From Oligoflexia bacterium (GTDB lineage: Bacteria > Bdellovibrionota > Bdellovibrionia > JABDDW01): DNA of 37,878 nt. Positions within the stretch are counted from its first letter, which is position 1. Each line of letters begins with the position of its first letter. The notes under the pieces were generated by a model. It did no database searches, had not been told where the DNA came from, and saw only the letters and a list, made by a program, of their open reading frames with translations. Position numbers and translations under genes: made by a program. Of this stretch, positions 9,397-37,878 are shown in pieces. Where the stretch lies: the NCBI GenBank assembly GCA_034439615.1, contig JAWXAT010000040.1:1-37878 (forward strand), given 5' to 3'.

Positions 9397-9490
9397 TTGT
9401 GGAATCTCCTCTTATAAATCGCGCAAAACATGACAAGGAGATGAATAGATTGCTTCTCACCTTGTGCGTGTGTCGCACGATTGATTAGGT

Positions 9491-9559
9491 GAGCGCCGTT
9501 TAATGAATAGAATCTGAGCCTAGGGCAACTGATCTGCCTCGCAACGCTCCTCAAATTCT
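9491..9559 (-). promoter_or_regulatory. S-adenosylhomocysteine (SAH) riboswitch
   Basis: On the minus strand a 10-bp P1 helix (AGAATTTGAG with CTCAGATTCT) encloses AGGAGCGTTGCGAGG and a TAGGCTC strand. Downstream, AACGGCGCTC can pair with GAGCG from the 5' half to form a pseudoknot. GGAGCGUUGC, GGCUC and AACGGCGCUC are the conserved blocks of the SAH riboswitch family, which precedes ahcY in many proteobacteria. About 95 nt separate it from the start codon. Known members turn expression on when SAH binds. Confidence 0.9.
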
Positions 9560-34839: not shown

Positions 34840-34879
34840 TAAGCAGATTAAATATTTTATGTTTTTTAAAAAGGTTTTT

Positions 34880-35866
34880 ATGTTTTTTTTAAATCTGAAG
34901 AAAATAGTTCCAGTTGTAGCAATTATTATTGTTGCGAATACTTCCTATGGAGCAACACGCAAAATCCCCAATGTTTTACGTCCGATCACTCAACAAAAAA
35001 CGTCGCTAAGTGAGCAAGAACTTCTTAAAGATACAACAAAGTCTTCTTATGTAGATTTTCAAGTGAGCTCCGGAACAATCGTTGCACGAAACACTGTTTA
35101 CTCTGGCTACCAAACCAGTTTTCTTTCCCTTCAAGCGGGGTACGGTGCTTATTTAAAAAATGATTGGGAGGCGTCAGCACAACTTCCCATGACATGGCTA
35201 TCTGATGAAAACAATAATCAAGATCGAATTATTGGTAGACCCCATATCAATATTTCAAAATCACTTATGCTTGAAAAAACTGTAAAATTAATTGGAGGTT
35301 TCGGAATGAAACTTCCTCTATATGACACATCATTTGGAAAATCAGAGCTCTATCGAGCTTGGGAGTTTGCCCCTAGAATTGGCGTTAATGTTACTTTTAA
35401 TAATCCTGCCAATAGTTTTTTTGCTAATGGAAGTATCGCCTATAACACAGACACAAAATATACATACGGCACTTATAATGAGAACACTGCTAGCTCAGCA
35501 GTAATAGAACGTTCGATCGATCATCCTTTATTGCTCAGATCAGTAGCCGGTTTATTGCATGAATCTCAAAGCTACACCGTTGGTATAGGCGCTCGTATAA
35601 TTCCAACCTTAAATGCGGGAAGTGAGAAATCATCAAGTACAGCTCAAGGGAGCAATCCAGAAAAACATGAAACAAAACAGCTTACATCTTGGTTGGTTGA
35701 AGTTTTTGGTAGTTATGAGCTTATTGAATCTGTAAATCTAAAAGCAGGAGTATCAAAAAGTTTACGAACTGAATTTGACAATACTCGTCCCAATCTAATC
35801 GCACATGATAATTTTTCAGACATAGCTGATTTGGCTTTTAATCTAGGTGTCGTTCAATCCTTTTAG
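34880..35866 (+). CDS. Putative outer-membrane beta-barrel protein
   Basis: The start at ATG 34880 is preferred because AAGG lies 5 bp upstream; in-frame ATG 34859 would add 7 residues without a ribosome binding site. The 328-residue product has a signal peptide (about 1-25, ending TSYGAT) and alternating polar/aromatic strands such as YQTSFLSLQAGYGAYLKNDWEASAQLPMTWL, with a C-terminal Phe (VVQSF), the BAM recognition feature of outer-membrane barrels. There are no repeats or plug. I estimate 10 to 14 strands. It follows the cupin gene by 40 bp and precedes a likely non-coding RNA locus. Function unknown. Confidence 0.78.
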   Translation: MFFLNLKKIVPVVAIIIVANTSYGATRKIPNVLRPITQQKTSLSEQELLKDTTKSSYVDFQVSSGTIVARNTVYSGYQTSFLSLQAGYGAYLKNDWEASAQLPMTWLSDENNNQDRIIGRPHINISKSLMLEKTVKLIGGFGMKLPLYDTSFGKSELYRAWEFAPRIGVNVTFNNPANSFFANGSIAYNTDTKYTYGTYNENTASSAVIERSIDHPLLLRSVAGLLHESQSYTVGIGARIIPTLNAGSEKSSSTAQGSNPEKHETKQLTSWLVEVFGSYELIESVNLKAGVSKSLRTEFDNTRPNLIAHDNFSDIADLAFNLGVVQSF

Positions 35867-35929
35867 GCAATCCTTCTAGGCAAATTTTTTAGACCAAAGT
35901 GATGAAAATTTCGAATATTTTGCGTTTTA

Positions 35930-35962
35930 AATAAAAGAAGGGGTCATCTTTCGACGACCCCT
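35930..35962 (-). terminator. Intrinsic terminator of the minus-strand small RNA
   Basis: A 7-bp stem AGGGGTC/GACCCCT (35962-35956 with 35945-35939) extended by GTCGTC-type pairing is followed on the minus strand by TTCTTTTATTT. On the plus strand the following bases are A-rich, so the polarity is minus. Confidence 0.8.
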
Positions 35963-35983
35963 AAAAATAATCCCTACTTTTGT

Positions 35984-36034
35984 CTAGAAGGGAGCCACCT
36001 CATTAAAAAAGTGGACTCTATTACATATATGCAT
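35984..36034 (-). CDS. Possible 16-codon ORF inside the small RNA
   Basis: ATG 36034-36032 to TAG 35986-35984 encodes 16 residues (MHICNRVHFFNEVAPF) and is preceded by AAGGAGG 10 nt upstream. The spacing is longer than optimal and the frame overlaps a hairpin, so it may be coincidental. Confidence 0.2.
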   Translation of the reverse strand: MHICNRVHFFNEVAPF

Positions 36035-36078
36035 CGAACCACCACCTCCTTCCAGTCCCTCGTGGGACGTGTCTAAAT

Positions 36079-36107
36079 ATATTAACAAATAATAAGTTTC
36101 TTCTCAA
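36079..36107 (-). promoter_or_regulatory. Sigma-70 promoter of the small RNA
   Basis: On the minus strand TTGAGA (36107-36102), exactly 17 bp and TAATAT (36084-36079). Strong consensus match. It overlaps the plus-strand sigma-28-like -35 element. Confidence 0.7.
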
Positions 36108-36130
36108 GTTGACCTGTTAGAAGCCGATAC
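36104..36130 (+). promoter_or_regulatory. Sigma-28 (FliA)-like promoter of the gene at 36167
   Basis: TCAAGTTG (36104-36111), exactly 11 bp, and GCCGATAC (36123-36130) give the best FliA match in the window (consensus [TC]AAGTTT-N11-GCCGATAA). The -35 overlaps the -35 of the divergent sRNA promoter. Confidence 0.65.
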
Positions 36131-36166: not shown

Positions 36167-36688
36167 ATGAATAATGACAAAGAATTTGTCACGCAGCATG
36201 ACTTAATGACGATCATCGAGGATTTCATCAGTAAGTCTGCGGGACTAGTGTTAGCAAAAAGCAACGAAGGAGACGTCGCAATTTGTCAAAAAGGTGATTC
36301 TAAAAAAATCAAAGTTAAGAGTGCTGAACTCGCCGACGTGCTTGTTCGAAAAGATGCTGATGGAAAAGAATTTGTGCAGATCAATTTTGCAAGTGGTCGC
36401 AAGATTTTGCTAACTGATCAACTCATCGGATTCAAACCATTTCCAGTTGCAGATTTAGATGTGACAAAACTTCCTCGTGTAGTGACAACACTTGATCTCT
36501 TAAGTGTGTTTGAAGCCATCGAAGAAGCTGTTACATCAGCCTCAGACGGTCGTGCCGAAGAAACTGAAACACTCAAGCGTGTTTTTAATTCTATCATTTT
36601 GGGTGGAGAAGAAATCGGTTTTGATCTGACAACAGAGCGTTCGTGGATTCGTAGACTTGCTGTTGTTGGCTCAAAGACAAGCGCTTAA
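36167..36688 (+). CDS. Unknown protein behind a sigma-28-like promoter
   Basis: The start at ATG 36167 has GGGGGAA 6 bp upstream; an in-frame TTG at 36152 would overlap that site. The 173-residue cytoplasmic protein has no signal or TM. It begins with a helical segment (about 5-25), then a beta-rich part with GKEFVQINFASGRKILLTDQLIGFKP (about 68-94) and a helical part with KLPRVVTTLDLLSVFEAIEEA (about 103-123) and RVFNSIILGGEEIGFDLTTER. No family recognised. The FliA-type promoter suggests expression with late flagellar/chemotaxis genes. Confidence 0.82.
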   Translation: MNNDKEFVTQHDLMTIIEDFISKSAGLVLAKSNEGDVAICQKGDSKKIKVKSAELADVLVRKDADGKEFVQINFASGRKILLTDQLIGFKPFPVADLDVTKLPRVVTTLDLLSVFEAIEEAVTSASDGRAEETETLKRVFNSIILGGEEIGFDLTTERSWIRRLAVVGSKTSA

Positions 36689-36955: not shown

Positions 36956-37031
36956 TGGTGGAGGCGAGGGGGATCGAACCCCTGACCCCTAGCTTGCAAA
37001 GCTAGTGCTCTCCCAGCTGAGCTACGCCCCC
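36956..37031 (-). tRNA. tRNA-Ala (UGC anticodon)
   Basis: The 76-nt minus-strand gene encodes its own CCA. Acceptor GGGGGCG pairs with CGCCTCC, including the G3-U70 wobble that marks alanine tRNAs. The anticodon arm CTAGC-TTTGCAA-GCTAG exposes TGC, and the T-loop TTCGATC is normal. It faces away from the 16S gene, unlike the usual tRNA-Ala inside the 16S-23S spacer. Confidence 0.97.
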
Positions 37032-37287
37032 GACAAAACCATAGTCAGCTTGACTTTCAGGGCTTTTGAACACCCGTGTGGTTTGCGGCACTCATGTGCC
37101 TAAAGTTAAAACTGGAACGGCCAAAGTAAATGATGCCGACATTTCTGTCAAACAGTGTTGCTCCTGCTTTTAAAAAATCTCAAAAATACTTATCTAAGTT
37201 TGAATTTGTATCTTGTTTTCCGACGAAGATTGAGTTAGTTAGTCCCTCTGCTTGAGCATTTGGTTTGAAACACCACCGATCGCAGGA

Positions 37288-37344
37288 AAAAATTTAAAAA
37301 ATAGAATTTTAAATATTGACTTACTTTCGGATTGTAACTAGAAC
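37288..37344 (+). promoter_or_regulatory. rRNA operon promoter with AT-rich UP element
   Basis: An A/T-only tract (about 37288-37315) precedes TTGACT (37316-37321), a 17-bp spacer and TAGAAC (37339-37344). UP element plus good -35 is typical of rrn promoters. The remaining 37032-37287 has no gene I can support. Confidence 0.65.
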
Positions 37345-37347
37345 TTG

Positions 37348-37357
37348 TGCTCTTCAC
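37348..37357 (+). promoter_or_regulatory. boxA antitermination site in the rrn leader
   Basis: TGCTCTTCAC matches the boxA consensus TGCTCTTTA and lies just downstream of the promoter. NusB/NusE binding here lets RNA polymerase read through the rRNA. A UUCG-capped hairpin (37470-37485) follows close to the 16S 5' end. Confidence 0.65.
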
Positions 37358-37497
37358 TTAAAAGAATCGCTCTCTGAAAACTAAATAGCTAGTATAAGTT
37401 TTGGCCAAAGTAAGTTTCTTTGAATTGCGAAATTTAAAAGAACATACTTTCTAAATAAGCAAAGTAGAACTCTCCTTCGGGAGAGATTGAAAAAGTT

Positions 37498-37878
<381 letters not shown>

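Follow-up and report, generated by a model that had tools for sequence, protein, structure and literature searches.

The window, a 37,878-nucleotide stretch of DNA from an Oligoflexia bacterium (contig JAWXAT010000040.1), contains two plus-strand genes separated by a short interval. The first of these (34859–35866) encodes a 335-aa protein that appears to have a signal peptide and lacks a Pfam match; it lies between a cupin gene and the interval, and is absent at the corresponding place in both homologous loci described below. The second, gene D (36167–36688), encodes 173 aa; beyond it come tRNA-Ala(TGC) and the first part of a 16S rRNA gene (36959–37878). The order of gene D and then 16S is kept in one relative (G002, L096), with ∼8 kb between them. 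An earlier note had proposed that a minus-strand unit with its own promoter and terminator lies between the two plus-strand genes, and this arrangement holds: we found a TTGAGA-N17-TAATAT promoter, a 5′ hairpin, a Shine-Dalgarno (SD)-like tract, a candidate masking segment, and a terminator, all on the minus strand at 35928–36107.

The sigma-70-type promoter of the unit (36079–36107, minus strand) consists of a −35 element TTGAGA (36107–36102), an N14-TGT spacer, and an extended −10 element TAATAT (36084–36079). The predicted RNA (35930–36073, minus strand) is ∼144 nt long, with a start placed ∼6–7 nt past the −10 element and an end at the T tract of the terminator. Its 5′ hairpin, P1, has the form GUCCC-ACGA-GGGAC (36055–36068; GTCCC-ACGA-GGGAC in the DNA), and the SD-like tract GGAAGGAGGTGG begins at 36053. 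Further downstream lie a hairpin P3 (35995–36014), in which CCACUUU (36014–36008) faces GAGGUGG (36001–35995), and the segment CTCCCTTC (35994–35987) to which the earlier note had assigned a possible masking role. The unit closes in an intrinsic terminator, AGGGGUCGUC-GAAA-GAUGACCCCU plus UCUUUUAUUU (35929–35962), with a 10-bp stem and a T-rich tail. The promoter and the terminator are both oriented to the minus strand, and a plus-strand reading of the unit was therefore rejected.

Taken alone, the promoter was not significant: it matched at 9/12 positions, and the region held 4 such sites compared to 6.4 ± 2.7 in shuffled sequences. Terminator-like sites numbered 6 in the region, compared to 1.6 ± 1.5 in shuffles. 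The folding energy of the whole RNA gave z = −3.3, which fell to z = −1.66 once the terminator was removed, indicating that the structural excess is largely that of the terminator. What sets the unit beyond chance is its conservation in two other genera, with a like promoter architecture and compensated hairpins.

A search of relatives recovered the unit in both other examined genomes of the same family (E = 1.7e-13 and 4.6e-7), the Oligoflexia MAGs SJ240 and nzgw168 (contigs JADLCR010000039.1 and JAHFAE010000073.1). The family sample thus comprises three genomes in three genera, with assemblies that are 95–97% complete. In both homologous loci, the unit is divergent from and upstream of a gene D of 173–175 aa, and adjoins the same cupin gene. 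The three promoters share the architecture TTGAG[A/T]-N14-TGN-TAxxxT with a 17-nt spacer. Within the RNA, a 27-nt block, UGGAAGGAGGUGGUGGUUCGAUGCAUA (36028–36054), is identical in the three genera, as are the stretches UGAGGUG and CCUUCUAGAC, and a 73-nt core contains no insertion or deletion among the three copies. The four-fold sites of gene D are just 26–33% identical among the same genomes, that is, they are saturated, and recent common descent therefore does not explain the conservation of the unit.

We then compared the stems among the three copies. P1 reads GGCCC-AAG-GGGCC and GGUUC-UAUG-GAGCC in the homologues, with two-sided changes from U-A to G-C and from C-G to U-A, and the terminator stems have altered letters while their pairing is retained. 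The other two stems did not provide such support: P3 is paired in 90.5% of cells across the three sequences, but its 7-bp core shows one-sided changes only, and P2 (see below) shows no covariation as it is invariant in all three copies. With just three homologues, the covariation evidence is thin. A search with the Rfam 15 covariance models returned no family at the gathering threshold and, up to E = 10, just chance matches far below threshold, consistent with the proposal of a new small RNA outside known families whose promoter, core, and terminator are kept family-wide. A likeness of GGAAGGA to SRP RNA likewise found no Rfam support. Elsewhere in the window, at 9484–9558 on the minus strand, a SAH riboswitch aptamer was matched by Rfam RF01057 with 56 bits.

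Beyond the family, no further copy of the invariant block was found at ≤3 mismatches over 25 nt in 144 class genomes, a covariance model run on 143 class and 369 phylum genomes returned nothing beyond the three family members, and exact-match scans across collections of genomes and of viruses recovered the same three and no others. Weak extra matches to the covariance model (best E = 0.001 a genome) were dismissed after twelve of them had been read; they were unlike the unit, and several fell plainly within protein genes; in two related genomes, for example, the match lay in a stretch with HFLEH that resembles a peptidase. The loci upstream of gene D that were examined in 27 other class genomes lacked the core of the unit and lacked a promoter and terminator at its spacing; one of them (L045) carries a promoter-like and terminator-like pair that is unrelated to the unit. 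Since gene D is class-wide and the unit is absent from these other loci, the RNA gene looks like an innovation of this one family, placed in a locus that is itself old. The unit is intergenic, carries a promoter and an intrinsic terminator of its own, and is retained in relatives; at the level of sequence, it has the features of an intergenic bacterial sRNA gene. The existence of a conserved, family-restricted small-RNA gene is thus well supported by comparative evidence, and the gene is very probably transcribed, from the minus strand.

To evaluate the SD-like tract, we used the 16S rRNA tail GGAUCACCUCCUUUCU read from the relative genome G001. The earlier note had suggested that the tract could pair with the end of 16S rRNA, and the match proved to be extensive: the site GGAAGGAGGUGGU (36041–36053, minus strand) pairs with AUCACCUCCUUUC in the tail over 13 contiguous positions at −21.9 kcal/mol. 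It is the only site with at least 11 contiguous pairs to the tail on both strands of the window; for comparison, the regions upstream of 24 long ORFs reached −14.2 kcal/mol at best. A second anti-SD-complementary site, GAGGUGGC (35994–36001, minus strand), reads GAGGUGGU and GAGGUGAU in the homologues; it pairs with the tail at −13.0 to −15.3 kcal/mol across the three copies and lies within the top 0.1%–0.4% of 17-mers in all of them. There is no start codon behind this second site. Opening of the SD tract costs 4.4–8.1 kcal/mol across the three RNAs, much less than the 16S duplex gains, and ribosome pairing should therefore beat self-masking in each copy. Pairing with 16S rRNA cannot alone account for all of the conservation, because the invariance reaches past the anti-SD match, into GGUUCGAUGCAUA and CUUCUAGAC. 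Also in the invariant block, GGUGGUUCGAUGC (36030–36043, minus strand) resembles a tRNA T-loop (G-UUCGAUG-C), with a stem that closes one pair only.

The proposed masking of the SD tract stood in part. A helix P2 (35985–36054, minus strand), in which UGGAAGG (36054–36048) pairs with CCUUCUA (35991–35985), can form with 7/7 pairs in all three copies. In fold predictions, however, it dominates in the window's copy only, at a probability of ∼0.76; in the L002 copy, the CCCUUCUA segment favors a downstream partner over the SD tract, and in the L003 copy, the SD tract is paired mostly elsewhere. The mask is thus a candidate only, although its helix is possible in all three copies.

A reading that makes the SD likeness secondary is that of a non-coding RNA that acts by base pairing or by binding a protein, with the invariant block as its seed or as a protein site, for example for CsrA via GGA. 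It has in its favor that conservation extends past the SD and operates at the nucleotide level. CsrA is encoded in 3/3 family genomes, and each RNA has 4–5 GGA motifs, of which the overlapping pair GGAAGGA is invariant. Hfq was not found by a Pfam search of the three genomes (assemblies 95–97% complete). Against it, the other GGAs are not all common to the three RNAs, and the two conserved ones are 4 nt apart and outside hairpin loops (the 5′ hairpin loops, ACGA, AAG, and UAUG, are without GGA), such that one CsrA dimer would be unable to span both. The three RNAs thus lack the several loop-borne GGAs of a CsrA-titrating RNA. They resemble the CsrB/RsmZ/McaS class in their GGA motifs and in the presence of a genomic CsrA gene, but differ from it in that just two GGAs are conserved, overlapping and not displayed in loops. 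The suggestion of a CsrA-titrating RNA consequently keeps its protein partner but loses its display of sites; CsrA may still bind the RNA, but the case for titration is the weaker one. Nor did a scan for complements of the block (15-mers, ≤2 mismatches) point to a partner; it returned only a few additional sites per genome (for one of the two patterns, about as many as with the pattern reversed), and none was traced to a target gene common to the family genomes. On balance, we consider a base-pairing or protein-binding role rather unlikely.

We also asked whether the product might be a peptide. Within the unit, a 16-codon frame (35984–36034, minus strand) runs from an invariant ATG, ∼10 nt behind GGAGG, to an invariant in-frame TAG, and encodes MHICNRVHFFNEVAPF in the window and MHKPHCNCLNFEVVPF and MHTHSVNHSIREVIAF in the homologues. 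A strong SD, a well-spaced ATG, and an equal frame length in three genera across an indel-free core all favor a small mRNA whose functional product is a peptide of the pattern M-H-x9-E-V-x-x-F. However, residues 3–11 have nothing in common among the three, while the neighboring protein is 64%–77% identical; with nine middle residues unconserved, selection appears to act at the RNA level. In the conserved ends of the frame, codon third positions do not vary, nor do the bases that follow the stop codon, again indicating that it is nucleotides that are conserved. Furthermore, a simulation gave P = 0.40 for the frame to be open in all three by chance, given the invariant blocks, and its openness therefore carries no evidential weight. 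Translation of the frame is plausible on these features, whereas the data lend no support to a conserved function of the peptide, and we regard a functional peptide as the purpose of the unit as decidedly unlikely. The idea of a leader for a tiny peptide failed on a further count: unlike in a leader-peptide attenuator, no structural gene follows on the same strand, as the unit closes in its own terminator and the genes on either side are read from the plus strand. A second frame (VVVRCI...) was discarded because its end is unconserved and it would need a start within the SD tract.

The divergent side of the locus offers another explanation. Gene D is preceded by a FliA (sigma-28)-type promoter, TCAAGTTG-N11-GCCGATAC (36104–36130, plus strand), with equivalents in both homologues, and FliA is encoded in 3/3 family genomes. 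A motif of this type (TTAAG/TCAAG-N15/16-(C/T/A)CGA) lies upstream of gene D in 27/30 class genomes compared to 0.35 expected, a contrast that is somewhat flattered because the loose pattern was written after the window's site had been seen. The Bdellovibrio FliA consensus is TTAAG-N16-CCGATA (PMC3627812). Gene D itself occurs in 108/143 class genomes, with a conserved core LTDQLIGFKP...LPKVVTT and a C-terminal SA. It has no Pfam or NCBIfam match; its AlphaFold model is confident (pLDDT 85), yet no PDB fold matched at E ≤ 0.001. The −35 element of the RNA (36107–36102) overlaps the FliA −35 element at 36104–36107, and this TCAAG/CTTGA overlap recurs in both homologues. Conservation of the RNA −35 element is partly forced, as CTTGA is the complement of TCAAG in the FliA −35 element; the extended −10 element of the RNA lies outside the FliA element, and its conservation is independent of it. 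Because the −35 elements overlap, the RNA would be expected when FliA is not engaged there, and we infer a reciprocal expression in which housekeeping sigma drives the RNA and FliA drives gene D. Antisense action of the RNA on gene D mRNA was excluded since the two transcripts diverge.

It is on this overlap, and on the class-wide FliA motif at gene D, that an action in cis could be built: transcription of the unit, or occupancy of its promoter, would tune the FliA-dependent gene D, and the RNA would be a by-product. Part of the −35 conservation is already given by the FliA element, and the proposal leaves the conserved 27-nt block and the covarying terminator inside the RNA unexplained; we consider it improbable. 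That promoter-like and hairpin-like sequences came together by chance, with no RNA made, is hardly credible, given an invariant block and a common architecture in three genera despite saturated neutral sites, even though the promoter match, taken by itself, does not exceed what shuffles give.

The explanation that we favor, while placing it a little short of an even chance, is that of an independently transcribed, family-specific, ∼144-nt minus-strand RNA selected for binding the 16S rRNA 3′ tail. RNA polymerase with the housekeeping sigma would initiate at the extended −10 promoter, in conditions where FliA is not engaged at the overlapping −35 element; the 5′ hairpin would cap the RNA and the terminator would close it. 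The invariant GGAAGGAGGUGGU tract and the second SD-like site would then capture 30S subunits. In doing so, the RNA might be a tiny mRNA competent for translation of its 16-codon frame, might act as a ribosome decoy, or might combine the two roles. The stop codon of the frame is overlapped by the CCUUCUA segment, which may fold back onto the SD tract to tune or reset it. Judged by its complementarity to 16S rRNA, the RNA probably works by engaging ribosomes through an over-strong SD, and the role of riboregulator that had been among the initial suggestions gains support in this form from the 13-bp match and the second conserved site. Ribosome binding and the fold-back switch are both put forward on the basis of predicted pairing.

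A more specific version of ribosome capture is that of a natural ribosome decoy, in which tandem over-long 16S matches (13 bp plus ∼8 bp) would hold the 30S subunit, subject to the fold-back switch, and expression would oppose the FliA program via the overlapping −35 elements. Titration of ribosomes by one small RNA demands a very high abundance, and our limited literature search found no clear precedent for a natural ribosome decoy. We think this version unlikely.

Several known RNAs share parts of this design. Spot 42 RNA of E. coli is a dual-function sRNA with a 15-aa frame that also binds CsrA (PMC10339803). Our RNA is similarly small and intergenic, has a separate promoter and terminator, and includes a ∼15-codon frame, but it differs in having no Rfam match, no Hfq found, a 13-bp 16S complementarity, and an unconserved peptide middle. 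Dual-function sRNAs of the Spot 42/SgrS type have a translated short frame with a conserved product; the frame here has an invariant length, start, and stop but unconserved residues 3–11 (three sequences). Tiny mRNAs of the RyeG/YodE type co-sediment with 30S and 70S; RyeG itself is encoded by a prophage, and its 48-aa product is bacteriostatic (PMC8058203). The unit is likewise a presumed sRNA for which ribosome association is expected through a short frame, here from sequence alone; unlike RyeG, it has 16 codons, is chromosomal, and bears no sign of a toxin. In Bdellovibrio bacteriovorus, merRNA is a 445-nt RNA with a c-di-GMP riboswitch and a proposed sponge, with FliA promoters in the same regulon (PMC3627812). 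Like merRNA and the attack-phase sRNAs of that species, the present RNA is small, lineage-restricted, and from the same broad group; unlike merRNA, it is 144 nt long, has no riboswitch match, and carries a promoter of the sigma-70 type opposite one of the FliA type.

Regulatory RNAs of Bdellovibrio-like groups are little known. Should the RNA bind 30S subunits while making no peptide that the cell needs, it would represent a ribosome decoy of natural origin. Overall, if our favored explanation is true, a family-specific RNA that has the strongest 16S complementarity of its neighborhood and shares promoter DNA with a FliA-type gene would offer a way into how such bacteria could adjust their translation capacity from one life phase to the next.
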